Source: Halovivax cerinus
Lineage (GTDB): Archaea; Halobacteriota; Halobacteria; Halobacteriales; Natrialbaceae
Assembly: GCF_024498195.1 (NCBI RefSeq)
Contig: NZ_CP101824.1
Coordinates: 1,550,001 to 1,614,000, forward strand
Reading direction: 5' to 3'
Length of the DNA: 64,000 nucleotides
A program made the translations under genes and the position numbers. How positions within the stretch are numbered: the first letter of the stretch is position 1; each line of letters begins with the position of its first letter. Positions 15,948 to 50,993 of this stretch are shown in pieces. Under the pieces are notes generated by a model. The model searched no databases, had not been told where the DNA came from, and worked only from the letters and a program-made list of their open reading frames with translations.

Positions 15948-15972
15948 GGTGGCCTTCGCCTGTCTCGACTCA

Positions 15973-19167: not shown

Positions 19168-19355
19168 TGGGGCCTGATCCGGCCGCTTCGATCGGGCGCA
19201 ATCGACAGGTTTCGGGACGGCGGTTGGGTCGGGTGGCGAGCGATGGCGGCTGGCTCGCCGACGGAGTGACGTGGTCGGCCTGCCCCGATCCGGTCGTCGC
19301 GGCCGGTCCGGTCGATCGAAGATCACACGAGCGCGCCGCGGTCGCGGGCCAACAC

Positions 19356-19363
19356 CTATTATG
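19356..19363 (+). promoter_or_regulatory. TATA box of STAND paralogue 2
   Basis: GGGCCAACACCTATTATG repeats the promoter of paralogue 1, with CTATTA 32 nt upstream of the ATG at 19388. An in-frame ATG inside this element (19361) is therefore not the start. Confidence 0.65.
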
Positions 19364-19387
19364 CAGACCCTCGAACTGTCGCCCCCA

Positions 19388-22300
19388 ATGGACGTTCCTG
19401 GCGTGGCTGACCTCGTCCTCGTGGCCCTCGAGCGAGCCGGTGCCGACGGCCCGTCGGCCGCGCTGACGGCGACGACGATCGCGGACACGATCGACCTGCC
19501 TGAGACGATGGCCGCTCGGGTCTCCCTGCTCTCGACACTGTCGACGATGGAGTCGGACGGACTCGTCGACCCGGTCTCGACCGATGGAGGCGATCCAGGT
19601 GCGTACGCGCTAACGGCGTCGGGTCGCGGCCGGGCACGAACGTCACTCGATCGCTACGAGTCGGCGTCGGTCACCGCACACGCTGGCGGCGAGCGCGTCG
19701 AGGGCTCGCTCACCGACGTCGCCGACCGCTTCGGACTCGATCTCGTGACGGCGATGGCGCGGCTCTCACCCGGCGGCGAGGTGACGGTCGAGGCGACGCT
19801 CGAGCCCGCGTTCGTCGACCGGGTGGCCGAACGTGAGGCGGTCGACCGACTGCTCGAGGCGGCCGCAGACGGCGAGCCGACGCTATTCGTCATCGAGGGC
19901 GAGGCGGGGATCGGTAAGACGACGCTCTTTCGCGAGTGTCGCTCGATGGCGGCCGACCGGGGGTTCGAGACGCTGGTCGGCCAGGCCGACCCCGATCGCT
20001 CCGATCCGTACCACGCACTGACCGACGCACTTCCGTGGGCGATCGAACACTTGGAGGAGGCGCCCGTCCCGACCTCGGATTCGGCGTCGGTGACGACCCA
20101 GTCGCTCGAAGACGCCGTCGCGATTCGGTACGGCGCGATCGGGGACGAGTTGCGCGACCGGGCGAGCGACCGGCCGATCTTCCTGGGCATCGAGGACTTG
20201 CAGTGGGCCGACGCCGCCACGCTATCGGTGCTCGCTTCGCTCCTCGAGGGAATCGAATCCGTCCCAATCGCCGTCGTCCTCACCGTGCGAAGCGACGCGT
20301 CCGCCGACGAATCCATCGTCGCGGCCCTCACTGACGCGGCCGCGTGCGAATCGACGGTCCGTCACCTCGACCCGTTCGGTCGCGAGGCCGTCGGGGAGTT
20401 GATCGAGCGGCGAGTGGGACGGCGCGGTGTCCCAGAGGCCTGTCTGGACGCGATCTACGAGCACACCGGTGGCGTCGGCCTGTTCGTCGAGGAGACGGTC
20501 GACGACCTGCTCGATCGGGGCGTGATCGACCCCCAGCGCGGGACGTATCCGGAGTCACTGGCCGACATCCCGCTGCCATCGGTCGTCGAATCGACGATCC
20601 GAGGCCGGCTCGACCGACTCGACGATCGCACGCGCGGCGTCCTCGAGGTGGCGGCGGTCGCGGGGACGACCGTCGACGTGGAGACGCTCCGGGTCGTCTC
20701 GGCGGACGCCTCGGCGCACCTGAACGATCAGGCGCACCTCCTCGTCGACGGTCGGGTCTGGGAGCGCCTTGACGAAGAGCGGTACCGGTTCGCGAGTCAC
20801 GTCCTGCGGTCGACGGTGCTGGAGACGCTCGACACGGATCGCCGTGCGTCGCTCGAACAGCGGGTGGCCGACCACCTGGCCGAGGCGCCTGACCCGCCCC
20901 ACGCCGAACTCGCCCGGCGGTACGATCGCGCCGGCGAGCCCGAATCCGCGCTCGAGCACGCGATGGATGCGGGCGAGGCGGCGCTCGACGTCTTCGCCCA
21001 CGAGGACGCGATCGACGCGTTCCAGCACGCGCTGGGGCTCGCACGCGACCTGGACCGAGACGCGGCGACGATAGAGGCCCTCGAATCGCTCGCGCAGGTC
21101 TATCAGATAGGCGGCGAGTACACGTCGGCCCACACCCACCTCGAGTACGTTCGCAACCACACCGACGACGTCGACCGCGTCAGGCGAACGTACGCCTCCC
21201 AGGCGAGGATGGACACCGACGTCGGCGAGGTGGAGCGAGCGATCGAATTCGTCGATCGAGGCCTCGAACTCGACGGACCGGTCTCGACGGCGTACGTCGG
21301 TCTGCTGGATGCGCTCGCGAGCGTGCAGTTCCAGCGCGGTGATTTCCGCGAAGCGATCGCCACCGCGCGATACCAGTACGACCTGGCGGACCGTCTCGAC
21401 GACGCCCGGATGAAGGGGCTCGCGTCGTTTCAGATCGGGCGGTGCCGGCGACAGGTGGGCCAGCCCGAACGGGCCGTCGAGTCCCTCGAAGCGGCGCGCG
21501 ACCTGCTCGAACCGCTCGACGAGCCGGTCGCCCTGGCGGATTGTCTGACCGACCTCGGCATCTCCTACATCACGATCGGCCGGTTCGACGAGGGCGTCGC
21601 CGCGATGGATCGCTGTCGGGACGTCGCCGAGGACGCCGGAGCCGTCGGCATGGTAATCAATTCACTCAACAATCTCGGCGTGCACGCGATCGGCCGAGGC
21701 GACTGGGAGCAGGCCCGCGAGCAGTTCGATCGGTTACACGACCTGGCCACTCGCGTCGGCAACGACCGAATGCGCATCATCGCCCTCAGCAACGAGGGTG
21801 TGATCGACCTCCTCAGCACCGACGTCCAGCAGGCCCGGGAGACGTTCGAGACGGCGCTCTCACTCTCCCGCTCGATCGGCCACGATCACCAGTCCACGTT
21901 CGGCAGGGTCAACCTGGCGCAGGCCGAGGTGCTGGCGGGCCGATTCGATCGGGCCGACCGGTACGCGACGGAGGCACTCGAACGCGCGCAGGCGGACGGC
22001 TACGTCAGGGCGGAGGCGGACGCGATGCGCATGCAGGGCGTCGTCGCTCGCGACCGCGGCGACGTCGAGCGAGCGGTCGAACGCATCCGCGATGGGCTCC
22101 AGCGAGCGCGAGAGAGTGAGAACACCGTGGAGATCTCCAAGGCGGCGACGGACCTCGCCAAGGCGCTGGTGGCGATCGGCGAGATCGAGGCGGCCCTGGA
22201 GCGCTGTGACGAGGCGGAAGCGAACGTCCCGGACGGCTATCGAATCGACCGCCTCGGTCTGAGAGCGACCCGTGCTCGCGCGCTCACGGCGGCTGGGGAC

Positions 22301-22585
22301 CCCGAGGGACCCGATGCGTTGCGATCGGTCCTGGAGGAGGCGATCGAGATCGATCACGCGCAGGTCGAACTGCAGGTCCGTCGTGACCTGGCCTGGCTCG
22401 CGCTCGAGTCGGGCGATCGGTCGGTCGCCATCGACCACCTCGATCGCGGCTACGCACTCGCCCAACGGACGCGGACGTACAGCGATCGCGAGTGGTACGA
22501 GGCCGCCATTCAGGCGGTCGAGGCCGGTTGTTCGGCAGCTGATTTACAGCCGCTCTGTGGACCGTTCGAGGCCAGTCGTGGGTGA
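19388..22585 (+). CDS. STAND/MalT-like ATPase with N-terminal winged helix and TPR-like tail, paralogue 2
   Basis: A 1065-residue close paralogue of the preceding gene, starting MDVPGVADLVLVALE. Walker A is GEAGIGKT at 171-178, Walker B is FLGIED followed by LQWADAATL. The TPR-like tail repeats the pattern of paralogue 1 almost residue for residue (SAHTHLEYVRNHTDDVDR, then MDTDVGEVERAIEF). Some stretches are nearly identical in DNA to paralogue 1, including synonymous positions, while others differ strongly, which suggests gene conversion or recent partial duplication. It has its own promoter, so the genes are probably transcribed independently. Confidence 0.88.
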   Translation: MDVPGVADLVLVALERAGADGPSAALTATTIADTIDLPETMAARVSLLSTLSTMESDGLVDPVSTDGGDPGAYALTASGRGRARTSLDRYESASVTAHAGGERVEGSLTDVADRFGLDLVTAMARLSPGGEVTVEATLEPAFVDRVAEREAVDRLLEAAADGEPTLFVIEGEAGIGKTTLFRECRSMAADRGFETLVGQADPDRSDPYHALTDALPWAIEHLEEAPVPTSDSASVTTQSLEDAVAIRYGAIGDELRDRASDRPIFLGIEDLQWADAATLSVLASLLEGIESVPIAVVLTVRSDASADESIVAALTDAAACESTVRHLDPFGREAVGELIERRVGRRGVPEACLDAIYEHTGGVGLFVEETVDDLLDRGVIDPQRGTYPESLADIPLPSVVESTIRGRLDRLDDRTRGVLEVAAVAGTTVDVETLRVVSADASAHLNDQAHLLVDGRVWERLDEERYRFASHVLRSTVLETLDTDRRASLEQRVADHLAEAPDPPHAELARRYDRAGEPESALEHAMDAGEAALDVFAHEDAIDAFQHALGLARDLDRDAATIEALESLAQVYQIGGEYTSAHTHLEYVRNHTDDVDRVRRTYASQARMDTDVGEVERAIEFVDRGLELDGPVSTAYVGLLDALASVQFQRGDFREAIATARYQYDLADRLDDARMKGLASFQIGRCRRQVGQPERAVESLEAARDLLEPLDEPVALADCLTDLGISYITIGRFDEGVAAMDRCRDVAEDAGAVGMVINSLNNLGVHAIGRGDWEQAREQFDRLHDLATRVGNDRMRIIALSNEGVIDLLSTDVQQARETFETALSLSRSIGHDHQSTFGRVNLAQAEVLAGRFDRADRYATEALERAQADGYVRAEADAMRMQGVVARDRGDVERAVERIRDGLQRARESENTVEISKAATDLAKALVAIGEIEAALERCDEAEANVPDGYRIDRLGLRATRARALTAAGDPEGPDALRSVLEEAIEIDHAQVELQVRRDLAWLALESGDRSVAIDHLDRGYALAQRTRTYSDREWYEAAIQAVEAGCSAADLQPLCGPFEASRG

Positions 22586-22703
22586 GCATCCGACGGACTG
22601 CCGATCGCCCCGATCCGACGTCGAAGCGGGCACCCGGCTCGGTCAGGCGAGCGTGCCGATCCGCAGGCCCGTCGGCTGCCGTCGGTAGCGCGTGCCTGAA
22701 CGG

Positions 22704-22710
22704 TTTTACC
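22704..22710 (+). promoter_or_regulatory. TATA box of STAND paralogue 3
   Basis: TTTTACC lies 24-30 nt upstream of the ATG at 22734, in the same relative place as in the other paralogues. It rules out the earlier in-frame ATG at 22692. Confidence 0.5.
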
Positions 22711-22733
22711 GCTCGCCGTTCAACCCCGGAGTG

Positions 22734-25700
22734 ATGACCGAGTACGGCGTCGACGACCTCGTCGTCCTCGCGCTCGATTCGACGGCCGATGGAGACGGGA
22801 GCGCGACGACGGTCGAACTCAGCGAGACGATCGCGTTCGGCGAGTCGTTGGCCGACCGCGTCCAGCTTCTCACCACGCTCGCCTCGCTGGCCCGTGCGGA
22901 TCTCGTCGAGGAGTCCGTCGACGAGCGCGACCGGACGCGCTACCGGCTGACGGATGCGGGTCGCGATCGCGCCGCGGAACTCCGGGCGGAGCTGGCAGCC
23001 GAACGAGTCACCGTCTCGGACGGAACCGACGAGCGTGAGTGCGCGCTGACCGACGTCCGCGACGTCGCCGGCATCTCGATCGCCGAGGCCCTCGTCCGCC
23101 GCTCGCCGTCGGGCGAGCTCGTGCTCGCGGACGCGTTCGACGCCGTCGTGAATCGTGAGGACGAGTTCGACAGGCTGACGACGACGTTCGACGCGGTGAC
23201 GGCGACCGCCGTCGATACCCGGTCGACCCACTCCGATACCCGGTCGACTGATTCCGACACCGCATCCGACGCCACCGAGCCCGCATCCGACGCCACCGAC
23301 ACCGCATCCGACGCCACCGAGCCCGCATCCGACGCCACCTGGTCCACAGCCGACGCCGACACCCCGCGCACGGTCGTCGTCACCGGCGACGCGGGCGTCG
23401 GGAAGACGACCCTGGTCGAGGCGTTCCTGGATCGCGTCCGCGACCGGTGTGGGGCCGTCTACGTCGGCCGCAGCCGGCCCGGTGGCGACGCGCCGTTCGA
23501 ACCGATCGCGGCCGCGCTCGACGCGGACGACGCGTCGCCGCCCGCCTTCGACGTCGACGCCGCGCTCGAGACGCCCGACGCCGAGGCCTACCGGGCCCAC
23601 CGGACGCGGCTCTACGACGACATCGCGTCCTGGCTCGAGACCCGTGCGGCCGACGGTCCGGTCGTACTGGTCGTCGAGGACCTGCAGTGGGCCGACAGCG
23701 CGACGCTCGACCTGCTCGCGCACCTCCACTCGTCGCTCGGGGAGGGGATTCTACTGCTGTGTACCTATCGGTCCGACGACGTGGACGAGACCGATCCGCT
23801 CGCCGAACGGGTACCGGCGGACGCCGTTCGACCGGTCGCCCTCCCGCTCGAATCGTTCGACCGCCAGACGACGGCGACGCTGGTCGAACACGAACTTCGC
23901 CAGCGGGGCGTCCCGACGGCTTTCACGGACGCCGTCTACGCGGTGACGGGCGGGAATCCCCTGTTCGTCGTCGAGACCGTCGCCGCCGCGCTCGAGGACG
24001 GCTCGCTCGACCCTCGCGTCGACCGGTACCCGACGAGTACGACGACCCTCTCCGCACCGGACGTGGTCGAGACGACGATTCGGCGTCGGTTCGACCGGCT
24101 CGACCCCGAGACGCGTGAACTCGTCGACACCGCGGCCCTCGCCGACGAACCGTTCGCGGTCGAGACCCTCGGCTCGCTCTGCTCGCTCCCGCCGGCGCAG
24201 TTGGGTGATCGCGTCGACCTGCTCGTCGACGCCGGTATCTGGCGGGAGACCGATGGGGGGTACCGGTTCCGGAGCCACGTGCTCCGGAGCGGTGCCCAAT
24301 CGGCGCTCGAACCCGATGCCCGCCGGGAGCGCCACCGGGCGATCGCGGCGCACCTTGCCGACGTCGAGGACCCCAACCACGCCCGAATCGCGACGCATCT
24401 GGACCGGGCCGGCGACGCGGCGACGGCCCTCGAACACTACCGGCTCGCGGCCGAGGACGCGGAAGAGACGTACGCCCACGACGTGGCGAGTTCGCACTAC
24501 GAACGCGCACTCTCGATCGCGCGCGAACTCGACCGCGACGACGACGTGCTGGCGCTGCTCGAATCGCTGGGCGACGGCTACTACACCCGCGGCGAGTTCG
24601 ACGAGGCGGACCGGTACTTCCGGTACGTACGCGAGGCCGCGGACGATCCGGAGCGGATCCGGCGCAGTTACTACTACCAGGCCCGCATGCACTTCGAGCA
24701 GAGCGAGTACGAGCGGACGGCGACGCTCGCCAGGCGCGGGCTCGACGCCGGAGGCGACGAGGTCACCGAGATGGTCTGCTGGCTGGTCGACTACCTGGGC
24801 AGCGCGCACATGAAACGAAGCGACCACGACGCGGCGATCGAGCAGTTCGAACGCCAGCGCGAACTCGCCGAGTCGATCGACTTCCGACTCTCGCTGGGGC
24901 GTTCCTATCAGAACCTGGCCACCGTCTCCCGCCGTACCGGCGCGATCGAGGACGCCGTCGCGTACGGTGAGCGAGCCGTCGCGTTGCTCGAAACCGCGTC
25001 GGCGGATCGCGAACTCGCCCGCTGTCTCAACGACGTCGCCCTCGTCTACCGGAGCGCGGGACGTACCGAAGACTACGTAGAGGCCTTAGAACGCTGCCAC
25101 GACCTGGCCGAGGAGACAGGCAACGTCCGGGCGCGCATCCTCGCGAAGAACAACCTCGGCGTCGCCGCTCAGAGCCGGGGCGACTGGGGGGACGCCCGAT
25201 CGTACTACGAGGACGTCGTCGCTCTCGCCGAACTGACCGAGGACACCGATACGGTCGCCCTCTCGCTGTGGAATCAGTCGATCGTCGACGTGGCACTCGG
25301 CGACCTTCCGGGAGCGATCGACGGGTTCGAACGGGCACTCTCCCTCGTCGAAGGGTCCGCGGAGATTCAAAAAGTAACGCACTTTCACACCAACGTGAGT
25401 CGGGCGTACCTCCTGGCGGGCGACGTCGACGCGGCTCGCTGGCACGTCGCGACGGGCCAGCGACTGGCGGTCGAACACGACCTTCCCCACCTGCGGGCGA
25501 CCAGCGCGATCAACGCTGCGACCATCGAACGGGAACGCGGGGCGATCGACGTCGCGCTCGAACACCTGCGATCGGCCCGCTCGGAGTTCGACTCGACCGA
25601 GGACGTCCGTACCGAAACGGCACTGCTCGACCAGTTCGCGCGGACCTACGTGGCGGCCGGGGAGCCGTCGACGGCGCTCGAGTACGCCCGCCGAGCTCAC

Positions 25701-26033
25701 GACGCGGCTCCCGACGGTACCCGGCAGGCGACGCTTCGGGCCGCGGTCACCCTGGGCGCGGCCCTTCGCGCCGCCGGGCGGCGAACGGACGCCCGAGACC
25801 ACCTCGAGTCGACCCTCGCGGACGCACAGACCATCTCTCGTCAGTCGACGATCCGCGCCCGTCGCGAACTGGCGCGCCTCGAACGTGACCTCGGGAACGC
25901 CGATCGCGCCCGCGAACACTACGCCACGGGCATCGACCTCGCCCGGTCCGCGGGGATGACACTGTACGTGACACAGCTTTCCCACGAATCGTCGCGACTC
26001 GACGAAAACGCCGCCGTCGCCGACGACCGGTGA
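22734..26033 (+). CDS. STAND/MalT-like ATPase with TPR-like tail, paralogue 3
   Basis: A 1099-residue member of the same family, more diverged from paralogues 1 and 2. It begins MTEYGVDDLVVLALD, has a winged helix in the first 90 residues, Walker A GDAGVGKT at 218-225 and Walker B VLVVEDLQWADSATLDLL. The extra length is a low-complexity linker (about residues 160-205) of DTRSTDSDTASDATEP-type heptads, encoded by a 21-bp minisatellite, between the winged helix and the ATPase. TPR-like repeats follow from about residue 540. The stop codon lies 9 bp from the stop of the histidine kinase gene on the other strand. Confidence 0.87.
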   Translation: MTEYGVDDLVVLALDSTADGDGSATTVELSETIAFGESLADRVQLLTTLASLARADLVEESVDERDRTRYRLTDAGRDRAAELRAELAAERVTVSDGTDERECALTDVRDVAGISIAEALVRRSPSGELVLADAFDAVVNREDEFDRLTTTFDAVTATAVDTRSTHSDTRSTDSDTASDATEPASDATDTASDATEPASDATWSTADADTPRTVVVTGDAGVGKTTLVEAFLDRVRDRCGAVYVGRSRPGGDAPFEPIAAALDADDASPPAFDVDAALETPDAEAYRAHRTRLYDDIASWLETRAADGPVVLVVEDLQWADSATLDLLAHLHSSLGEGILLLCTYRSDDVDETDPLAERVPADAVRPVALPLESFDRQTTATLVEHELRQRGVPTAFTDAVYAVTGGNPLFVVETVAAALEDGSLDPRVDRYPTSTTTLSAPDVVETTIRRRFDRLDPETRELVDTAALADEPFAVETLGSLCSLPPAQLGDRVDLLVDAGIWRETDGGYRFRSHVLRSGAQSALEPDARRERHRAIAAHLADVEDPNHARIATHLDRAGDAATALEHYRLAAEDAEETYAHDVASSHYERALSIARELDRDDDVLALLESLGDGYYTRGEFDEADRYFRYVREAADDPERIRRSYYYQARMHFEQSEYERTATLARRGLDAGGDEVTEMVCWLVDYLGSAHMKRSDHDAAIEQFERQRELAESIDFRLSLGRSYQNLATVSRRTGAIEDAVAYGERAVALLETASADRELARCLNDVALVYRSAGRTEDYVEALERCHDLAEETGNVRARILAKNNLGVAAQSRGDWGDARSYYEDVVALAELTEDTDTVALSLWNQSIVDVALGDLPGAIDGFERALSLVEGSAEIQKVTHFHTNVSRAYLLAGDVDAARWHVATGQRLAVEHDLPHLRATSAINAATIERERGAIDVALEHLRSARSEFDSTEDVRTETALLDQFARTYVAAGEPSTALEYARRAHDAAPDGTRQATLRAAVTLGAALRAAGRRTDARDHLESTLADAQTISRQSTIRARRELARLERDLGNADRAREHYATGIDLARSAGMTLYVTQLSHESSRLDENAAVADDR
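23214..23345 (+). repeat. 21-bp coding minisatellite in the linker of STAND paralogue 3
   Basis: Six 21-bp units in frame. The last four begin GCATCCGACGCCACC at 23262, 23283, 23304 and 23325. The first two begin GATACCCGGTCGAC at 23214 and 23235. They encode heptads such as ASDATEP and vary by whole units, so the linker length can change without a frameshift. Confidence 0.9.
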
Positions 26034-26042
26034 TCCGGGCGA

Positions 26043-27146
26043 TCAATCGGCCCGCTGGAGCGTCACGCCGAATCGGGCGCCGCCGAGCGGCGAGTCGCCG
26101 ACGGTGAGGTCGCCGCCGTACGTGTCCGCGATCTCCGCGGCGAGGTGGGTGCCGAGACCCGTCCCGCCGGAGTCGCCGATCGAGACGCCGCGGTCGAAGA
26201 TGCGGTCGCGGTCCTCGCGGTCGATGCCCGTGCCGTCGTCGTCGACGTAGATGGTCACCGCCTCGTCGGTCGCGGTCGTGTGAATTCGGATCTGCGAACC
26301 GCCGGAGTGGACGAGCGCGTTCTCGAGTACGTTCGCGAAGAGCTCCTTGAGCAGCGTGCCGCCCTCGACGCGCAGGTCGTCGACGTCGGTCTCGACGTCG
26401 AAATCGTGCTGACTCGCGAGGTCGGCGTGTCGGTCCACGGTCTCGCGGATCACGCGCGGGAGTCCGACGGGTGAGAGTTCCTCGTCGGCCTCTAGCTGGT
26501 GGAGCGTCCGGACGTTCTCGATGAGGTCGATCGCCTCGGTGACGCCCTTCTCGGCGTAGCCGTGGTACTCACGTTGCTCCTCGGTGAGGTCGCCTTCGGC
26601 GAGCAGGTCGAGGTAGCCGTCGATGACGGTGAGCTTGTTGCCGAGGTCGTGTCTGAGCACGGAGTGGAGGAACTCGGCGCGCTCCTGGGCTTCGGTTCGC
26701 TCGGTGGTGTCCGTCGCGACGCAGACGATCCCTTCGACGCTCCCCGAGTCGTCCGTCATCACGGACGCGGAGAGGCTGGTCGGGATGGCCTCACCGTCGG
26801 CGGTCTCGAAGTAACTCTCGAGGTCGGTGACGCTCCCCTTTCGCAGGAGGTGTTCGATGAGCTCCCCGGAGTGAAGCATCGAGGAGAGCTCGGCGTTGCG
26901 GTCCGGATCGGCGAGGACGTAGTCGATCGGTTTTCCCTCGAGTTCGTCGGGCTCGTAGCCGAGCATGTCGCGAACGGCCTCGTTCGCCAGGCGGATCCGC
27001 CCGTCGGGGCCGAGTTTGACGAGCACGTCGACCATCGTGTCCATCAGGTTCTCGAGGTCGGCCGTGCGCTTTCTGACCCGTTCGGCCAACTCCGATCGGG
27101 AGAGGATCGTCAGTTCCTCGTCCCCGTCGATCCCGGTATCGTCCAT
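26043..27146 (-). CDS. PAS domain sensor histidine kinase
   Basis: A 367-residue soluble kinase. Residues 1-34 form a charged coiled coil, about 35-150 a PAS domain (VLVKLGPDGRIRLANEAVRDMLGYEPDEL). The phosphoacceptor is His166 in LRHDLGNKL, the N box is FANVLENALVH (270-280), the G1 box DDDGTGI (302-308) and the G2 box GGTGLG (327-332). It therefore has all catalytic parts. There is no membrane segment and no response regulator gene next to it, as is common in haloarchaea. It sits in reverse orientation between STAND paralogues 3 and 4 and shares a divergent promoter region with paralogue 4, so joint signalling is possible but unproven. Confidence 0.93.
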   Translation of the reverse strand: MDDTGIDGDEELTILSRSELAERVRKRTADLENLMDTMVDVLVKLGPDGRIRLANEAVRDMLGYEPDELEGKPIDYVLADPDRNAELSSMLHSGELIEHLLRKGSVTDLESYFETADGEAIPTSLSASVMTDDSGSVEGIVCVATDTTERTEAQERAEFLHSVLRHDLGNKLTVIDGYLDLLAEGDLTEEQREYHGYAEKGVTEAIDLIENVRTLHQLEADEELSPVGLPRVIRETVDRHADLASQHDFDVETDVDDLRVEGGTLLKELFANVLENALVHSGGSQIRIHTTATDEAVTIYVDDDGTGIDREDRDRIFDRGVSIGDSGGTGLGTHLAAEIADTYGGDLTVGDSPLGGARFGVTLQRAD

Positions 27147-27170
27147 CCGGTCGACATTGGGTCGGCCCGT

Positions 27171-27179
27171 AATTAATAC
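27171..27179 (-). promoter_or_regulatory. TATA box of the histidine kinase gene
   Basis: Reading the minus strand, GGTATTAATTACG lies 25-34 nt upstream of the ATG at 27146, consistent with a leaderless transcript. Confidence 0.55.
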
Positions 27180-27301
27180 CCCCGCTCGCCGATCGGCTAT
27201 CCACCGGCAACGACGCCGACGCGGACGACCGCGCGACTGGCGGCGATCTGGCGTCGCGTTCGCGCCGCCGTTCGGCGGTCAGTCGTCTCACGGTCACGCA
27301 G

Positions 27302-27310
27302 TTTTATGTG
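27302..27310 (+). promoter_or_regulatory. TATA box of STAND paralogue 4
   Basis: TTTTATGTG lies 23-31 nt upstream of the ATG at 27333. It is 123 bp from the divergent kinase TATA box. Confidence 0.55.
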
Positions 27311-27332
27311 AGTTCGCGGCCACATTCGGTCG

Positions 27333-30300
27333 ATGACGGCGTATAGCGTCGAGGACCTGGTCCTCCTCGCCCTTCGCGAGCAGTGCGGTGCCGACGAATG
27401 CACGGCGGGGGCGACCGTCTCGGAACTCGGCGACGTGATCGGGCTCTCCGGGACCGTGGCCGACCGGCTGACGCTCCTCTCGGCCCTGTCGACGCTCACG
27501 GGGAACGGGCTGGTCGACGAGACGACCGGCACCGTCGCGGACCGGTCAGGCGAGCGGAGCCTGTATCGATTGACGGGTTCGGGTCGACGACGTGCGACGG
27601 AACGGACGGACGCGGTGGGCGAACTGCCCGTGACGGTTCACGAACGTGATGAAACCGCCGAGTGTCGCCTCGGCGATGTTCCCGAGCGGTTCGATCGCTC
27701 CATCGCCGAAGCGCTCGTCAGACGCGCCCCCTCCGGCGACCTGTATCTGCCGGCCGAGTCCGACGACATCGTCGACCGGTCCGACGAACGCTCCCGCCTC
27801 CGGAGCACCTTCGAGAAGACGCTCGACGGCGAGCCAGCGACCGTGATCGTCTCCGGAGAGGCCGGCGTCGGCAAGACGACACTGGTGGAGGCGTTCGCCG
27901 AACGGGCTCGCGAATCGGGCGCGGACGTGCTCGTCGGGCGGAGTACTCGAACCGGAGCCGACGCGTACGGACCCCTCCGGGACGCGATCGAGGGCGCGAT
28001 CGGCGCCGCGGACGAGTCGCCGTTCGCCGACGGGTGGGCGAAAGCGGCGGACGCCGAGATGTACCGGACCCAGCGCGCCGCCCTCTACTCGACGGTGTCG
28101 GCGACACTCGCCGATCACGCCCGGAACACGCCGACGGTACTCGTGATCGAGGATCTGCAGTGGGCCGACGCCGCGACGGTCGACCTGCTCGCGCACGTCT
28201 GCGAGGAGCTCTCGGACGTTCCGGTGCTCCTCGTCGCCACCTACCGCCCGTCTGGGGTCGCGGACGAGACGCCACTGGACCGGCGACTCGCGGAGCGAGT
28301 GGCGATGGACCACGTCGTCGAACTCGCGCTCGACCCCTTCGACCGGGAGCGAACCGGCGAGCTCGTCGAGGCCGAAGTAACCCGCCGGGGCGTCCCCCAA
28401 TCGTTCGTCGACGCCGTCTACGAGCGAACGGGCGGGAACGCGCTCTTCGTCGTCGAGACGGTCGCGGCGTTGCTCGAGTCCGGCGCGCTCGATCCCCGCG
28501 TGGATCGCTACCCGGACGCGGTCGACGACGCCGAGATTCCGGACGTGGTCGAGACGACGATCGACCGGCGCTTCTCCAGACTCGACGACGAGACGTACGG
28601 GGTGGTGGCCGTCGGCGCGGTGCTCGACGACCCGATCACCATCGACGGGCTGCTCGCGATCTCGTCGCGTCCGGAGCCGACGGTTCGCGAGCGGGTCGAC
28701 CTCCTCGTCGACGGTGGCATCTGGGTCCGGGACGACGACACGCTTCGATTTCGAAGCGAGGTGCTCCGGTCGACGGCCCTCGCCTCGATCGCCGACGACC
28801 GGCGGCAGTCGCTCCACGAGGGGGCCGCTGCGTACTTGGCCGATGACGAGTCGACTCCGCCGGCTACCGTCGCGTCGCACTACGAGCGGGCCGGTGACGC
28901 CGATCGCGCCCTCGAGTGGTACCGACGCGCGGCCGGGGACGCGACCGAGGTGTACGCACACGACGTGGCGGTCGAACACTACGAGCGAGCCCTCTCCCTC
29001 GCCAGGGAACTCGACCGGGAGGCGGCCGTCCTGGATCTTCTCGAGGGGCTCGGCGACATCCACGCCACGCGGGGCGAGTACGGCGAGGCGGATCGACAGT
29101 TTCGGTACGTCCGTGAGCGGACCGACGACCCGGAACGGATCCGTCGCAGCTACCGGTACCAGGCGAAGATGGCCTTCGAGAGCAGCCGGTACGACGACGC
29201 CGAAGAGTACGCCCAGGCGGGGCTCGCAGTCGGCGAGGACGACGTCACGCCGGAAGTCTGTCGACTCACGGACTACCTCGGGAGCGCGTACTTCGGTCGC
29301 GGACAGTACGAGGAGGCGATCGCCCACCACGAGCGGTTGCGCGACCGCGCCGCCGAGATCGACTGCACCGTCTCGCTCGGCCGGGCGTATAAGAATCTCG
29401 GGACCTGTTACACGAAACTCGGCGAGTTGGACCGGTCTGTCGGACTCAACGAGCGTGGCGTCACGTTACTCGAGGACACTGGCCACGCGCGGGAACTGGC
29501 GAGCGCGCTCAGCGATCTCGCCATCGCGTACGGCCGAACCGGGGACTACGACCGGGCCGTCGACGCGCTGGAGCGCTGCGACGAACTGGCCGAACGGACG
29601 GGGAACGTCTCGGCGCTCGTCCTCTCGAAGATGAACCGCGCGGTCTTCGCCCAGTGGCGAGGTGAGTACGGGACGGCGCGCGAACGGTACGCCGACGTTC
29701 GCGAGATCGCCGAGCGCATCGACGATCGGGACGGGCTGGCGCTCGCCATCTGTAACGAGAGCCTCATCGATCGAGAAGTCGGCCGTCTGGAACCCTCGAT
29801 AGCGGGGTTCGAACGAGCGCTCGACCTCGTCGATGGAACCGAGGTCACGAATCGAATCACGCTCGTCGAGTGGGGTCTCGGGGAGGCACACTTCCTCGCC
29901 GCCGATTTCGACCGCGCCGAGACGCACCTCGATCGGGCGCTCGACCTCGCCGTCGAACACGACTTCACGCGACACATCGGGGCCTGCAAGTCGGTCATGG
30001 GGGCCGTAGAACGGGAACGTGGCGAACTGGATCGGGCGATCGAACTGGGTCGGGCGGGGCTGGATCTCGTCCCGGACTCCGAGACCCAGCGGGTCCTGTA
30101 CCTCCGGATGAACCGTCTCGCGCAGACGCTGTTGGCGGCGGGAGACGTCGACGAAGCGCTAGAACTCTGTCTCGAGGGCAGAGAGACGATCCCGGAGCAC
30201 GTCACGGTCACCGAGGTCAAACTCGCCGCCACGCACGGTGCGGCGCAGGTGGCTGCTGGCGAACTGCAATCCGCCCGTGAGACCCTCGAATCGACGGTCG

Positions 30301-30524
30301 ACCGTGCCCGCGGTCTCACGACCGAGGCGCTGCTCGTCGCGCTGTGCGAACTCGGTCGCCTCGAACACGAAGCGGGCGACGCGTCGACCGCTCGTGACCA
30401 CCTCACGGAGGGTCGTCGGATCGCGACGGACGCCGGCTTTCGCGTCTTCGTGCCCCGCTTCGACGAGGTACTCGCCGAGATCGACGGTGGTGACCGGTCC
30501 GACGGGTGCGTCGACGGCGTCTGA
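27333..30524 (+). CDS. STAND/MalT-like ATPase with TPR-like tail, paralogue 4
   Basis: A 1063-residue paralogue starting MTAYSVEDLVLLALREQC. N-terminal winged helix (TVSELGDVIGLSGTVADRLTLLSALSTL), then a P-loop ATPase with Walker A GEAGVGKT at 175-182 and Walker B VLVIEDLQWADAATVDLL, then YRFRS-like arm (TLRFRSEVLRSTAL) and TPR-like repeats to the end. It groups with paralogue 3 by eye (shared GGNALFVVETVAALLESGALDPRVDRYPD-type segment). It is divergently transcribed from the histidine kinase gene. The ligand and the regulated target are unknown. Confidence 0.87.
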   Translation: MTAYSVEDLVLLALREQCGADECTAGATVSELGDVIGLSGTVADRLTLLSALSTLTGNGLVDETTGTVADRSGERSLYRLTGSGRRRATERTDAVGELPVTVHERDETAECRLGDVPERFDRSIAEALVRRAPSGDLYLPAESDDIVDRSDERSRLRSTFEKTLDGEPATVIVSGEAGVGKTTLVEAFAERARESGADVLVGRSTRTGADAYGPLRDAIEGAIGAADESPFADGWAKAADAEMYRTQRAALYSTVSATLADHARNTPTVLVIEDLQWADAATVDLLAHVCEELSDVPVLLVATYRPSGVADETPLDRRLAERVAMDHVVELALDPFDRERTGELVEAEVTRRGVPQSFVDAVYERTGGNALFVVETVAALLESGALDPRVDRYPDAVDDAEIPDVVETTIDRRFSRLDDETYGVVAVGAVLDDPITIDGLLAISSRPEPTVRERVDLLVDGGIWVRDDDTLRFRSEVLRSTALASIADDRRQSLHEGAAAYLADDESTPPATVASHYERAGDADRALEWYRRAAGDATEVYAHDVAVEHYERALSLARELDREAAVLDLLEGLGDIHATRGEYGEADRQFRYVRERTDDPERIRRSYRYQAKMAFESSRYDDAEEYAQAGLAVGEDDVTPEVCRLTDYLGSAYFGRGQYEEAIAHHERLRDRAAEIDCTVSLGRAYKNLGTCYTKLGELDRSVGLNERGVTLLEDTGHARELASALSDLAIAYGRTGDYDRAVDALERCDELAERTGNVSALVLSKMNRAVFAQWRGEYGTARERYADVREIAERIDDRDGLALAICNESLIDREVGRLEPSIAGFERALDLVDGTEVTNRITLVEWGLGEAHFLAADFDRAETHLDRALDLAVEHDFTRHIGACKSVMGAVERERGELDRAIELGRAGLDLVPDSETQRVLYLRMNRLAQTLLAAGDVDEALELCLEGRETIPEHVTVTEVKLAATHGAAQVAAGELQSARETLESTVDRARGLTTEALLVALCELGRLEHEAGDASTARDHLTEGRRIATDAGFRVFVPRFDEVLAEIDGGDRSDGCVDGV

Positions 30525-42364: not shown

Positions 42365-42538
42365 GTTTCCTCATCCGTGTCGACCGCTGGGGATCGTTTT
42401 CCTCGCTCCGCTCCAGGCCTCTCGTGAAAAATCTGAACTATTTTGACTGAGCACAAAAACAGAACTACACTCGTTAGTAGAAACGGTTTGTTGGGTGGCA
42501 CTTCCCGGAAGTTTTGATGAATAAATCTAATGGTGCAG

Positions 42539-42568
42539 TATATTTTAACATTCCAAAACATTATATGC
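42539..42568 (+). promoter_or_regulatory. conserved promoter of cassette 1
   Basis: TATATTTTAAC at about 42539 and TTATATGC at 42561-42568, the latter 22-29 nt upstream of the ATG. The same two elements with the same spacing stand before cassette 2, separated by a conserved CCAAAA. Sequence around them is otherwise diverged, so this is a selected promoter. Confidence 0.65.
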
Positions 42569-42589
42569 TATCGTTATTCAAATTGTGCC

Positions 42590-44275
42590 ATGGGGAAAAA
42601 TAGCAGTGAAGTGAACAGACGCTCCGTCTTGCGATCTCTCTCAGGGGCTGGAATCGCGGTCGCCGGGACCGGAACCGGACTCGCCGCGACCGGCTCGGCC
42701 GAGGTGAACTCCGACGTCGGGATCTTACCGTATACCGATTGTACGCCAAACTTCGGCGAGGAATTCGGCGATGATGACAACGGTATTGGCCATTGCGACG
42801 ACCTACTCCCCCAGGCTACCACTCCGGTATGGTCCGTAATGGACTACACCTTCGAAGAGGAGAGGAAATGCTCACAGCAGGTGCTGAGTTACTTCGGCGC
42901 TCGATACCTCCCTGGCGAGGATGAGTGGGCTCATCGGTTTACCCTCCAGGGGCACCAGGTTGCAGCGAGTCTTTCGAGTGACTATGGATACGCCCCCGAC
43001 TACACCTGCCCGATGGATAATACGAGTAGTTTATATACAAAAAATCATGCTTCAATCGATATCGAGAGTGATACCGGGTCGTTATTAATCGAACACGATA
43101 CTGATTCGATGGGGTTCTATGATTTTGCTACGTTTGTAAATCACTACGAGCAGGAACACGGCGAACTCGAAGACCCTCGGACGGTTGATGGATGTTCTCG
43201 GATCGATGTCGAAGAGGAGGGCAACGACTACTTCTACGACACGCCTTCCCCATTTTCTGACGAAGAATCGATGGCGTTTCGGTCACTCTTCGACCCTGAC
43301 GCTCCCGACGAACCGATTACCGACAGGGCTATCGATCTCACCGACGAGATACAGGCCAATACGCCATTGCTAGAGGACCCAGTGAACGACGATTTCGCCG
43401 TCGATTTGATGCTCGCTATGATCGGAACAGCCGGTACTGGAATCGGCGTAGCGGCTCCACAATTCGGAGCGGCCGTTTCGATCGGAGTGACGATGGTCGA
43501 TCTGTTCGCAGGGATCGATTGGAAGGATAATGACGACGAAAGAGGGGTCGAACGGCCTGGTGGGGAGAACGCATGGGACGCCGGATACGAACCATCTACG
43601 ATCGGAACGCCTGCCGGTCACTTCGTACACTTTGAGGTCCACCTCGATCCAGATACTCATACGGAACCGATCGACGTCGCCGTCCAATCGACGTTACTGG
43701 ACGAGGAACACTCGATGACGGTAACCCTCCAACCGCTCGGACAGCCCGACAGAGCCCCCGATCCAGCTCTGGGACGGTATAGTTTCGTGGGCAACGACGC
43801 TGCCGTCCCGCCATCGGATGGCGTGTACGACATCTTCGAACGGCCGGAGGGCGGCACCGACCCGATCATCGAAGAGGTTCACTGTCCGTCTCTCGTCGCG
43901 CCCGACGAATCGTTCGAGTGTTCGGCCGTCGTTAATTCCGCCAGCACTCGAGACATCGCCTACTATGCTTGGGCAAACGACCACTCGGTGGAGGACGACT
44001 CCCAACAAGATACCCTCCAGTGGTGTAACACGACCGACTCCGGCGTACCGAACTGGGAACACTGTGGCTTCCAAGATCCAGGCGAGGCCGAAATCACGCT
44101 CGTCGTCGGCGACGAGGCCGGGCTCTTCGACTACGAAACCGTCACGATGGTCGTGGGCGAGCCTGAGGAAGGTGAGATGTTACCGACAGGCGGCCCGGGA
44201 GATCAGGTTCTCGGTACGTCGGAAGCGAGTGGATTGACGGTTCCGAACGGGACTAATCAGTGGGTGGGGGCCTAA
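42590..44275 (+). CDS. Tat-exported protein of cassette 1, unknown function
   Basis: A 561-residue protein starting MGKNSSEVNRRSVLRSLSG. The twin-arginine motif RRSVLRSL and the Ala/Gly-rich helix (GIAVAGTGTGLAATGSA) indicate Tat export. Then come a Cys-containing domain (SDVGILPYTDC), VWSVMDYT, SQQVLSYFG and FVNHYEQEHGELEDPR, all kept in the cassette 2 paralogue. Residues 270-309 form a Gly/Ala-rich hydrophobic stretch (LMLAMIGTAGTGIGVAAP) in the middle of an acidic protein, which could insert into a membrane. The C-terminal part has an Ig-like fold pattern with paired cysteines. The gene is 1 nt upstream of the precursor gene. I know no family for it. Confidence 0.85.
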   Translation: MGKNSSEVNRRSVLRSLSGAGIAVAGTGTGLAATGSAEVNSDVGILPYTDCTPNFGEEFGDDDNGIGHCDDLLPQATTPVWSVMDYTFEEERKCSQQVLSYFGARYLPGEDEWAHRFTLQGHQVAASLSSDYGYAPDYTCPMDNTSSLYTKNHASIDIESDTGSLLIEHDTDSMGFYDFATFVNHYEQEHGELEDPRTVDGCSRIDVEEEGNDYFYDTPSPFSDEESMAFRSLFDPDAPDEPITDRAIDLTDEIQANTPLLEDPVNDDFAVDLMLAMIGTAGTGIGVAAPQFGAAVSIGVTMVDLFAGIDWKDNDDERGVERPGGENAWDAGYEPSTIGTPAGHFVHFEVHLDPDTHTEPIDVAVQSTLLDEEHSMTVTLQPLGQPDRAPDPALGRYSFVGNDAAVPPSDGVYDIFERPEGGTDPIIEEVHCPSLVAPDESFECSAVVNSASTRDIAYYAWANDHSVEDDSQQDTLQWCNTTDSGVPNWEHCGFQDPGEAEITLVVGDEAGLFDYETVTMVVGEPEEGEMLPTGGPGDQVLGTSEASGLTVPNGTNQWVGA

Positions 44276-44276
44276 T

Positions 44277-44876
44277 ATGTCCACTCAAGGATCAATATGG
44301 ATTGACGGTGATTCGTTACGCTTCGTGGATGGAAACGACACGGTGTGGGAATACGTGGGTACTGAGGTATCAGATTCGTCCAACGAGGAACCGGGGACGA
44401 TCTGGATCGAGGGATCGTTCATCTACTATATCGACGAAGCCGGCACCAAGCGGCAGGCTCCCGCTGATGTTGGCGAGCCAGTCGAAGAAGCGGTTGAAGG
44501 CTCCGTCTGGATAAACGATTCCAAGATAATCTGGATCAATGATGACGGTAAAAAGACAAAAGGAACTGCCGACAACTTGAATTATACCGACGGCGGGTAT
44601 GCCGACTCTGGGTATTCGGACACTGGATACACGGACGACGGATACACGGACTGGAACTATCAGGACTCGGGATACTCGGACGCTGGATACGATGACGGGC
44701 CCTTCTATATAGACGGCGGGTACTTTGACGAGGGCTACCTCGACGATGGGTACAGTGACGACCCATACGATGACCTGAGCTATTACGATGCTGGGTATTC
44801 CGACTCCGGGTACTCTGACTCCGGGTATTCGGATTCCGGATACGGTGATTACGATGATATGCCCCAGCAGGTGTGA
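44277..44876 (+). CDS. putative RiPP precursor with Tyr-x-Asp repeat tail
   Basis: A 199-residue peptide. Residues 1-95 consist of three related WI-hairpin repeats: GSIWIDGDSLRF, GTIWIEGSFIYYID and GSVWINDSKIIWIND. From 103 to 194 the tail holds some 19 Y-x-D motifs, nearly all at 5-residue spacing (103, 108, 113, 118, 123, 128, 133, 138, then 144 to 189 in fives), as in GYSDSGYSDSGYSD. The only aromatic residues outside the motif in the tail are few. The gene lies between the exported-protein gene and a radical SAM/SPASM gene, 6 nt before the latter. By analogy with radical SAM cyclophane systems the first part would be the leader and the tail the modified core; this is inference. Confidence 0.82.
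   Translation: MSTQGSIWIDGDSLRFVDGNDTVWEYVGTEVSDSSNEEPGTIWIEGSFIYYIDEAGTKRQAPADVGEPVEEAVEGSVWINDSKIIWINDDGKKTKGTADNLNYTDGGYADSGYSDTGYTDDGYTDWNYQDSGYSDAGYDDGPFYIDGGYFDEGYLDDGYSDDPYDDLSYYDAGYSDSGYSDSGYSDSGYGDYDDMPQQV
44580..44860 (+). repeat. 15-bp coding repeats for GYxDS pentapeptides
   Basis: The tail of the precursor is built of 15-bp units such as GGGTATTCGGACTCC, with synonymous and non-synonymous variation between units. Near the end (44800-44845) three units are almost identical, which points to recent unit duplication. Confidence 0.85.
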
Positions 44877-48684: not shown

Positions 48685-50370
48685 ATGGGTGGAAATAGCA
48701 ACGAAGTGAATAGACGGTCCGTCCTCCAAGCGCTCTCGGGGGCCGGACTCGCGATCGCCGGAACCGGAGCCGGACTCGCCGCTACTGATCCGAGCGTGTC
48801 GAGTTCCGATATCGGGATTCTGCCGTACGAGGGGTGTGAAACCCAGGAGACGAGTGGTCCGAAGTGCGATACACTGATCCCCGATGCCACCTATCCAGTG
48901 TGGTCCGTGATGGACTACACCGTCACTGAATCGGACGCATATAAACAGAAACGCTCACAGCAGGTGCTGAGTTACTTCGGGACTGGATACGATACTGAAT
49001 CCGATAAATGGGTTCACCGATTCGCACTCCAGGGTCACTATATAAAAAGCGATCACGTTGTTGATCACGATTGGCACGCGATCAACTACACCTGTCCCAT
49101 CGATAACGTGGAAGAAACAGATACTAAAAATCGAGCTGCCATCGAGATCGAGGGCGAAGACGCAACCTTAAAAGTAGATGAAAATCAAGATACGCTGGGA
49201 TTTTACGATTATGATACGTTCGTAAACCACTACGAACAGGAACACGGAGAACTCGAGGACCCCAGAATCGGGACGGGATGCTCTCCAATAAACTCTCTCG
49301 ACGACTACGACAAGAACGATTTCTTCTACGATAAACCCTCCCCGTTTTCCGAGGAAGAATCGAGGGCGTTTCGGTCACTCCACGACCCCGATATTCCCAA
49401 CGAACCGCTTACCGACAGCGCACTCGAGATTACCGACGCGGTCCAGGCCAATTCACCAGTACTGCAGAATCCGGATGGTGACGATGATATCAATCTCGAC
49501 ATGATGCTTGCAACGGTCGGTATGGTGGGTACCGGTGTTAGCCTCGCTGCTCCTCCACCCTACGGGGCAGCTGTGTCTGTCGGATTATCGATAATCGACA
49601 TGATCGCAGGGGTCGATTGGGACGAAGAGAACCCTGAGGAAGTCACACGGCCTGGGGGAGACAACGATTGGGGACCCGTCGGATACGAACCAGACACCAT
49701 CGGCACCCCTGCCGGCCACTTCGTCCATTTCGAGGTCGAACTCGAACCTACTACCGATGGGGAACCGACCGACGTCACCGTCCAATCGATGTTACTGGAC
49801 GAGGAACACTCGATGACGATATCTCTCCAACCACTCGGACAGCCCGACAGAGCGCCGCATTCGAATCTTGACGGATATAGCTTCTCGCGAAACGATGCCG
49901 CTATTCCCCCATCGGACGGCGTGTACGACGTTTTCGAACGGCCGGACGGTGGCACTGACCCGATCATCGAAGAGATTCACTGTCCGTCTCGCGTCGTAAC
50001 CGGAGAAGAGTTCGAGTGCTCAGCCGTCATTAACTCTGCCAGTACTCGCGATATCAACTATTATGGCTGGGGACGCGAACACTTTGGGGAGGGAGATATT
50101 GAAGAGAAAAATAAGAAATGGTGTGGAACGACTGACACCATCGTACCGAACTGGGAACGCTGTGGCATCAACGTCCCCGGAGAGGTCGAGATCACGCTCG
50201 TCGTCGGCGACGAGGCCGGACTCTTCGACTACAAAACGACCACGGTGCTCGTTGGTGAACCCGAGGGAGAGACGCTTCCCATTGGCGACCCAGGTGCCCT
50301 GACGCTCGGCACGTCGGAAGCGAGCGGTATGACCGTTCCAACTGGATCTATCCAGGGGGTGGAGGCCTGA
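48685..50370 (+). CDS. Tat-exported protein of cassette 2, unknown function
   Basis: A 561-residue paralogue of the cassette 1 exported protein, the same length. It starts MGGNSNEVNRRSVLQALSG with a twin-arginine signal. Shared blocks are SSDIGILPYEGC, VWSVMDYT, SQQVLSYFG, FVNHYEQEHGELEDPR, GTPAGHFVHFEV and LLDEEHSMTISLQPLGQ. The hydrophobic segment LDMMLATVGMVGTGVSLAAP and its continuation to IIDMIAGVDW are kept, as are the cysteines of the C-terminal Ig-like part. The whole chain is conserved, so it probably works with the modified peptide, as carrier, target or co-toxin; none of these is shown. Confidence 0.85.
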   Translation: MGGNSNEVNRRSVLQALSGAGLAIAGTGAGLAATDPSVSSSDIGILPYEGCETQETSGPKCDTLIPDATYPVWSVMDYTVTESDAYKQKRSQQVLSYFGTGYDTESDKWVHRFALQGHYIKSDHVVDHDWHAINYTCPIDNVEETDTKNRAAIEIEGEDATLKVDENQDTLGFYDYDTFVNHYEQEHGELEDPRIGTGCSPINSLDDYDKNDFFYDKPSPFSEEESRAFRSLHDPDIPNEPLTDSALEITDAVQANSPVLQNPDGDDDINLDMMLATVGMVGTGVSLAAPPPYGAAVSVGLSIIDMIAGVDWDEENPEEVTRPGGDNDWGPVGYEPDTIGTPAGHFVHFEVELEPTTDGEPTDVTVQSMLLDEEHSMTISLQPLGQPDRAPHSNLDGYSFSRNDAAIPPSDGVYDVFERPDGGTDPIIEEIHCPSRVVTGEEFECSAVINSASTRDINYYGWGREHFGEGDIEEKNKKWCGTTDTIVPNWERCGINVPGEVEITLVVGDEAGLFDYKTTTVLVGEPEGETLPIGDPGALTLGTSEASGMTVPTGSIQGVEA

Positions 50371-50372
50371 TC

Positions 50373-50993
50373 ATGTCCGACGAAGGCTCCATCTGGATCG
50401 ACGGGACTAATCTCCACTTCACCGACGGCGACGGTGAAGAGTGGTATTACCTTGGCGAACTGACGGGAACTGACGACCGGACATCCGGGAAGATCTGGAT
50501 CGAGGGTGACGTCCTCTACTACGTTGACGAGTACGGACAGGAGCGAACGTTGCCGACGAACATAACTGACAACTCGGTGACGGGCGTGAAGGGGTCCGTC
50601 TGGATCGAGTCCTCGAAGATCACGTATGTCTCCGCGGAGAAGAAGGAGGTCGAAGCAGCTGGCACGGTCGGACAGAATACCGGTTCGAACGATCACACCG
50701 ATCACAACGACCACGATAACACCGGTCACAGCGATTCCCACGACAACGAGTTCAGCGACCACGCGGACGACCCGCACGAGGACTCACACCAGGACGATCA
50801 CACCAACAGCATCTACGATCCGATCGAGGGCGGCCACAGCGACCACGCTGACGACCCGCACACCGATTCCCATAGCGACGGGGACATTCATTCGAATACC
50901 CACGACAACTCCCACGAGAATCACACCGATCACGACGACTGGGGGCACGACGACCACGAAGACTGGGAGATGGACGTCCCGAAGAAAGCATGA
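50373..50993 (+). CDS. putative RiPP precursor with His-x-Asp/Asn repeat tail
   Basis: A 206-residue peptide. The first 95 residues match the cassette 1 precursor (GSIWIDGTNLHFTDG, IWIEGDVLYYVDE, GSVWIESSKITYV). From 108 to 197 the tail holds about 20 H-x-D or H-x-N motifs (HTD 108, HND 111, HDN 114, HSD 119 and so on to HED 195) and one FSD at 127, so nearly every aromatic residue is followed at +2 by Asp or Asn. This replaces the Tyr of the cassette 1 tail. The stop overlaps the maturase start as ATGA. A His-rich metal-binding protein is an alternative, but the maturase linkage and the parallel with cassette 1 favour a modified peptide. Confidence 0.82.
   Translation: MSDEGSIWIDGTNLHFTDGDGEEWYYLGELTGTDDRTSGKIWIEGDVLYYVDEYGQERTLPTNITDNSVTGVKGSVWIESSKITYVSAEKKEVEAAGTVGQNTGSNDHTDHNDHDNTGHSDSHDNEFSDHADDPHEDSHQDDHTNSIYDPIEGGHSDHADDPHTDSHSDGDIHSNTHDNSHENHTDHDDWGHDDHEDWEMDVPKKA

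Follow-up and report, generated by a model that had tools for sequence, protein, structure and literature searches.

The locus examined here raises the question of what happens to a protein whose C-terminal part is built of histidines, each with Asp or Asn two residues further on, and whose gene overlaps that of a radical S-adenosylmethionine (rSAM) enzyme. It lies in a window of 64,000 nucleotides (positions 1,550,001 to 1,614,000 of contig NZ_CP101824.1; all positions below are those of the window) on the chromosome of the haloarchaeon Halovivax cerinus, a single contig of 3.9 Mb. The window carries two paralogous cassettes, A and B, that share the gene order Tat-signal protein (Tat, twin-arginine translocation), array protein, rSAM enzyme (hereafter maturase), and DUF483-like protein; the array is based on Tyr in cassette A and on His in cassette B. 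Here we report the motif rule of these arrays, its distribution in phages, archaea, and bacteria, and a proposal that we regard as probable, namely that a virus-derived surface or tail-fibre protein is stapled at many sites into three-residue cyclophanes of the triceptide type.

A reading made from the sequence alone had described array protein B as carrying about 20 His-x-Asp/Asn motifs plus one FSD, and the open reading frame (ORF) is as described. From residue 107 on, all 20 His residues have Asp or Asn at position +2, in the triplets HTD, HND, HDN, HSD, HAD, HED, HQD, HTN, HSN, HEN, and HDD. The further claim, that nearly all aromatic residues of the tail obey the rule, agrees with a count of 21 of 24, FSD included, the exceptions being YDP, WGH, and WEM. 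At offsets other than +2, Asp or Asn was found for 3-11 of 19-20 His, and shuffling the residues of the tail gave a mean of 34% and reached 100% in 0 of 20,000 trials. The x position is occupied by varying residues, and Tandem Repeats Finder detected on the arrays only short imperfect repeats (periods of 9, 15, and 24 bp) that cover them in part; the +2 rule thus does not stem from copying of one tandem DNA unit. In the tail of array protein A, 19 of 20 Tyr have Asp at +2, and the two array proteins are 42% identical across their first 95 residues (E 2e-26). His and Tyr codons are one transition apart, so that a swap between them is mutationally easy, but keeping 20 sites at one residue is not.

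The same rule was then counted on 78 array ORFs from 65 loci, comprising 2,476 motifs. The share of residues with Asp or Asn at +2 was 95% for His, 53% for Phe, 52% for Tyr, and 51% for Trp, compared with 3-10% for every other residue; the aromatic values are inflated, as the array regions were set by the motif itself. In an offset contrast on loci that were mostly chosen by their enzyme, the value for His is 98% at +2, and no other offset exceeds 40%. The x position seldom holds Pro or a basic residue. The arrays range from near-pure His (locus L141) through Phe (35 of 41 in L156) and Tyr (cassette A) to mixtures of His, Tyr, and Trp (L155, L183, and genome G391). On a Halomicrococcus plasmid, a single maturase gene lies next to an array with motifs of three kinds (16 His, 8 Tyr, and 1 Phe), which by its composition bridges the His and Tyr cassettes of the window. 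On a tree of 93 maturase sequences, the aromatic make-up of the arrays is not clustered: the label 'mixed' scored as low in 127 of 500 shuffles, and a clade-specific aromatic preference was therefore rejected. Consequently, a simple difference in substrate pocket between the two cassettes is not indicated. The sequence-only reading proposed that the motif aromatic-x-D/N, and no single amino acid, is under constraint; this is borne out by these ORFs and by the free switching over the tree, and His-rich tails without Asp or Asn at +2 were found for only a few percent of His. One imperfect Asp-rich candidate, a Met/Asp/His-rich ORF with 17 of 21 His fitting (L142), was set aside, as it has no rSAM gene and Asp at many offsets; it probably represents another kind of protein, metal-binding or of low complexity.

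The enzymes encoded beside the arrays belong with peptide maturases. Both window maturases match the Radical_SAM/SPASM domains (PF04055) with every cluster Cys present, and in the family alignment the CxxxCxxC motif and the SPASM Cys are invariant or nearly so. The nearest curated families (NCBIfam) are the cyclophane makers DynA, YhhB, AmcB, and OscB, with scores of 78-102 bits where the cut-offs are 310-450 (best scores: DynA 102/450, YhhB 96/445, and AmcB 93/425 bits), and with scores so far below the cut-offs the window maturases are not members of these families. An AlphaFold2 model of maturase B, with a predicted local distance difference test score (pLDDT) of 78.5, has its nearest solved fold in ChlB (9gm3; Z 30.7, root-mean-square deviation (rmsd) 3.2 over 336 residues), followed by the anaerobic sulfatase-maturating enzyme anSME (Z 30.1); sequence identity to these two enzymes, which have different substrates, is 17-20%. 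An HGDxHGDHxD tail on the maturase itself tracks the presence of an array (39 of 65 with arrays vs 4 of 35 without) and is perhaps a site of self-modification or a substrate-like lid. Most phage maturases carry such C-terminal PHGD..HGDHTD tails of up to about 25 motifs (e.g., L032 7026-8273, L129 10391-12070, and L139 3722-5740), and loci L129 and L139 each have two maturases in tandem.

The coupling of array, maturase, and DUF483-like gene was evaluated across genomes. As a query the single window maturase was too divergent, giving no relatives in the viral or genome collections, and phage homologues and alignments were used instead. A search of viral contigs with the maturase alignment gave 80 loci, where a profile score above 150 bits defined a close maturase. 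An aromatic-x-D/N array was present at 30 of 31 close-maturase loci vs 0 of 48 distant rSAM loci (Fisher 6e-21), and a DUF483-like gene at 29 of 31 vs 0 of 48 (Fisher 1e-19); these p-values overstate independence, since some loci are near-duplicates. With a neighbour-blind DNA pattern for HxDHxD, every credible array had a maturase, among the matches listed. The other matches of this pattern were, besides L142, mostly HKDHKD-type arrays, which were excluded as collagen-like repeats read out of frame, in which x is almost always Lys or Arg. A pattern of the family SPASM motif identified 64 genome loci in many bacterial phyla, with arrays in 36 of them within the flanks fetched. In Halobacteria the maturase family is rare (4 of 391 genomes). 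Altogether, the trio occurs in phages and proviruses as well as in numerous bacterial phyla, and its arrays, in which His, Tyr, Phe, and Trp are mixed, reach about 138 motifs.

A viral derivation of the array protein is suggested by its N-terminal part. In tblastn searches the array protein matched the Thermus phages phiMa and Cumys (phiMa_29/Cumys_13; E 4e-15), and the N-terminal 106 residues of array protein B alone still gave E 4e-12 to phiMa, which identifies the relation as homology and not shared composition. The phage protein has 343 residues, with a tail made nearly entirely of HxD repeats, and its gene follows baseplate and tail-fibre genes and precedes those for rSAM and DUF483; this phage trio is homologous to that of the window, in identical order. 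Most phage array proteins start with a triple GSxWIEGxxLHYIDxxGxEWR domain. A tip motif, [LV]xPVGTDKW, very frequently terminates the product of the gene directly 5' of the phage arrays. Arrays are also embedded in 1,000-residue tail fibres, and arrays form the end of a fibre J protein (L172; phrog_31, PF13550) or of a LamG protein (L184). A tail or baseplate setting was also found in the G014 provirus and in the Halomicrococcus plasmid, where the array follows a baseplate gene within a baseplate module and the gene 5' of it ends in VVLPVGTDRWA. In Thermus phage phiLo (L034 12807-15296), two array proteins of about 81 and 50 motifs, both annotated as hypothetical, are encoded on the strand opposite the maturase.

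Several chromosomal bacterial array proteins (L234, L257, L259, L263, and L269) start with a Tat signal, in some with a lipobox-like Cys, and such cellular proteins have this signal in place of the triple domain. The triple domain is therefore unlikely to be a recognition leader, and a structural role is more likely as judged from its relatives. Of the "leader-like" N-terminal part noted in the sequence-only reading, the sharing between both array proteins thus stands, and the leader role gives way to a phage-tail domain. Export through the Tat pathway would suit an array protein, because the modification would occur in the cytoplasm before export. In the window it is the upstream protein that bears the Tat signal; relatives of these two proteins were found neither in phages nor in 390 other genomes at class level.

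The DUF483-like genes adjoin the maturase gene, or are fused to it in 21 loci. Against the PF04467 gathering score of 25, partner A reaches 21.9 and partner B has no match; the protein of locus L167 passes at 32.4, by which the window proteins are divergent relatives of PF04467. In their family alignment one Cys is invariant and a Cys-Cys pair nearly so. A model of partner B (AlphaFold2, pLDDT 90) has no solved relative above Z 4.8 (2guk, 99 residues, rmsd 3.6). The partner may help in substrate recognition or perform a second step. At about 30 loci a methyltransferase-like extension follows DUF483 in the same ORF (Pfam Methyltransf_23/25 in several), which suggests, from domain content, a further modification step; it is found in neither window cassette. 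The DUF483-methyltransferase fusions include L105, L141, L158-L182, and L254.

The features of the two cassettes are collected in Table 1. The DUF483-like proteins A and B are 26% identical. From 42 to 50 kb the G+C content is 53-57% vs about 68% in the surroundings, which suggests that this region is an acquired island. Neither cassette contains a protease, transporter, or exporter gene, and no tail genes were recognised around them in the wider window, which was read as ORFs without a family scan. There is no Rfam match across 42-54 kb and no tRNA in the window. Elsewhere in it, successive ORFs of about 1,000 codons on the + strand (15949-30524; starts at 15949, 19271, 22692, and 27333) share similar N-termini and appear to form a tandem paralogous family.

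Table 1. Features of cassettes A and B and of the interval between them (window positions)
Feature	Position	Strand	Description
Tat-signal protein A	42530..44275	+	60% identical to Tat-signal protein B; C-terminal end ...SGLTVPNGTNQWVGA
Array protein A (Tyr)	44277..44876	+	N-terminal domain as in protein B; array of 19 YxD
Radical SAM/SPASM maturase A, 464 aa	44883..46277	+	58% identical to maturase B over 416 aa
DUF483-like partner A, 306 aa	46244..47164	+	PF04467 E 1.8e-4, below cut-off; family alignment
ORF between cassettes, 260 aa	47377..48159	+	No family match; low G+C like rest of island; at most a candidate member of the system
Tat-signal protein B, 561 aa, orphan	48685..50370	+	2 bp 5' of array gene B; C-terminal end ...SGMTVPTGSIQGVEA
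Array protein B (His), 206 aa	50373..50993	+	Triple GSxWI(D/E)G domain at about residues 4-95 (N-terminal); array of 20 Hx[DN] plus FSD (C-terminal)
Hx[DN] array of protein B	50689..50972	+	First His is residue 108; 20/20 His with D/N at +2
Radical SAM/SPASM maturase B, 474 aa	50990..52414	+	PF04055; 4-nt overlap with array gene B
DUF483-like partner B, 275 aa	52411..53238	+	GTG start; 4-nt overlap with maturase B; family alignment

To account for these observations, we propose that maturase B, probably together with its DUF483 partner, acts on the array protein in the cytoplasm and would link the ring of each His to C-beta of the Asp or Asn at +2, so that about 20 three-residue cyclophanes would follow one another along the tail; the sister cassette would perform the same reaction on Tyr-x-Asp. 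The array would be the distal part of a fibre, anchored through the triple GSxWIEG domain to the tip motif at the C-terminus of the upstream gene product, which is a tail or baseplate-fibre protein in phages and a Tat-exported protein in the window. As the upstream protein is Tat-exported here, a fibre of viral derivation seems to serve the host at its cell surface. An otherwise disordered, acidic, aromatic-rich chain would be stiffened by stapling and made resistant to proteases and heat, with a putative role in adhesion or receptor binding.

Such chemistry has close precedents. The triceptide enzymes XncB, OscB, YxdB, HaaB, YhhB, and AmcB are likewise SPASM rSAM proteins whose substrates have an aromatic-x-residue motif with the partner at +2, and established crosslinks include C3(Tyr)-Cb(Asp) by YxdB, Trp-Cb(Asn/Asp) by OscB, C4(Phe)-Cb(Asn), and, for His, C2(His)-Cb(Ala) or Cb(Arg) by HaaB and YhhB (PMC11002830). 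Given this chemistry, a Tyr-to-Asp bond would be identical in kind and a His-to-Asp bond a small extension. The systems described here differ in their predicted virion or surface substrates, in having up to about 138 motifs, in a DUF483 partner, in the lack of a recognisable leader, protease, or exporter, in the nearly obligatory Asp/Asn, in the mixing of aromatics within one array, and in maturases that fall below all curated cut-offs.

Several observations weigh against stapling. Aromatic residues other than His obey the +2 rule in only 51-53% of cases, all family members tested score below the cut-offs of the characterised cyclophane maturases, and a His-to-Asp cyclophane was not found in the literature searched. 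No array is detectable nearby in 28 of the 64 genome loci (e.g., in Nannocystis and Aquimarina), so that the substrates of the family may be wider. A plasmid of Halorussus aquaticus likewise encodes an rSAM and a DUF483-like protein with no array nearby (L306 9001-11206); its maturase is 71% identical to maturase B, and the pair is possibly an orphan acting in trans. The maturase of the G014 provirus (L002/L301) has Met, Thr, and His instead of three SPASM Cys and keeps the radical-SAM Cys; from its sequence it may have lost one auxiliary cluster. Finally, the ends of Tat-signal proteins A and B match [LV]xPVGTDxW over a short stretch, by eye, and are plausibly the same tip motif as in the phage upstream proteins. 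The maturases with no clear array nearby include L241, L243, L249, L268, L271, L279, L284, and L294, from Nannocystis, Plesiocystis, Aquimarina, and Dokdonia.

Among other explanations, it is possible but unlikely that the rSAM enzyme acts at the motif to give a different product, such as an ether or C-N bond, a desaturated Asp beta-carbon, or a crosslink that is methylated later. The methyltransferase-like motif that follows DUF483 in the same ORF at 30 loci may mean more than one step, and a related daropeptide enzyme also forms an ether bond (PMC9055067); the aromatic-to-D/N rule from i to i+2, however, is that of the C-C cyclophane triceptides, and the methyltransferase part is absent from both window cassettes. 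An unmodified metal- or proton-binding chain of His and Asp, with the rSAM enzyme doing something else, would fit the dominance of His in the arrays and the frequency of both residues as metal ligands, but it is improbable in view of the all-Tyr cassette A, the 35 of 41 Phe in L156, the Trp and Tyr mixtures in L155 and L183, the restriction of Asp/Asn to +2, and the co-occurrence with one rSAM family. The preference of the sequence-only reading for crosslinking over His-mediated metal binding accordingly holds as far as modification at the motif is concerned, which is favoured because arrays with freely switching aromatics go with one rSAM family; the crosslinks themselves are what we infer.

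The gene pair also resembles the precursor and maturase of ribosomally synthesized and post-translationally modified peptides (RiPPs), where the tail would be cut off as a small bioactive peptide and the N-terminus would serve as leader. This is very improbable for a cassette that has no protease or transporter and an N-terminal domain that is a conserved tail domain, absent from cellular versions; arrays also lie inside 1,000-residue tail fibres. The remotest option, that the module modifies DNA, e.g., with deazapurine-like bases, comes from a 2024 paper in Viruses, whose passages found describe an 'rSAM module' (rSAM, DUF483, and an unknown protein) in phiMa and Cumys and suggest DNA modification from homologues near deazapurine genes in some cyanobacteria; the HxD array is unmentioned in these passages (PMC11437467). 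In phages the constant neighbours are, however, arrays and tail genes, bacterial chromosomes have Tat-signal array proteins beside the module, and the enzyme groups with peptide maturases, which argues against DNA modification. Compared with the phiMa and Cumys module, that of the window is chromosomal and duplicated, and a gene for a Tat-exported partner stands where the phages have tail genes.

Returning to multi-site cyclophane stapling, the protein family is widespread and essentially undescribed, its module having been described before in two Thermus phages but not explained in this way, and no relevant paper came up in literature searches on tail proteins modified by rSAM enzymes. To our knowledge, cyclophane crosslinking is known so far only from small secreted peptides. 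We lean, with less assurance than for the stapling itself, towards a broader view in which phages, archaeal proviruses, bacteria, and haloarchaea share an unrecognised class of virion and cell-surface proteins, stapled by rSAM enzymes at tens to more than 100 aromatic-x-Asp/Asn sites into peptide-cyclophane fibres, and in which one haloarchaeon has turned such a viral fibre into duplicated, Tat-linked Tyr and His surface systems. If true, this would be the first rSAM modification of a virion fibre that we know of and a new way to build rigid protein fibres, with dozens of cyclophane sites on tail fibres or surface adhesins, as well as a source of enzymes able to process His, Tyr, Phe, and Trp many times over. 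In addition, DUF483 and the so far unexplained phage module each gain a function that can be tested directly.
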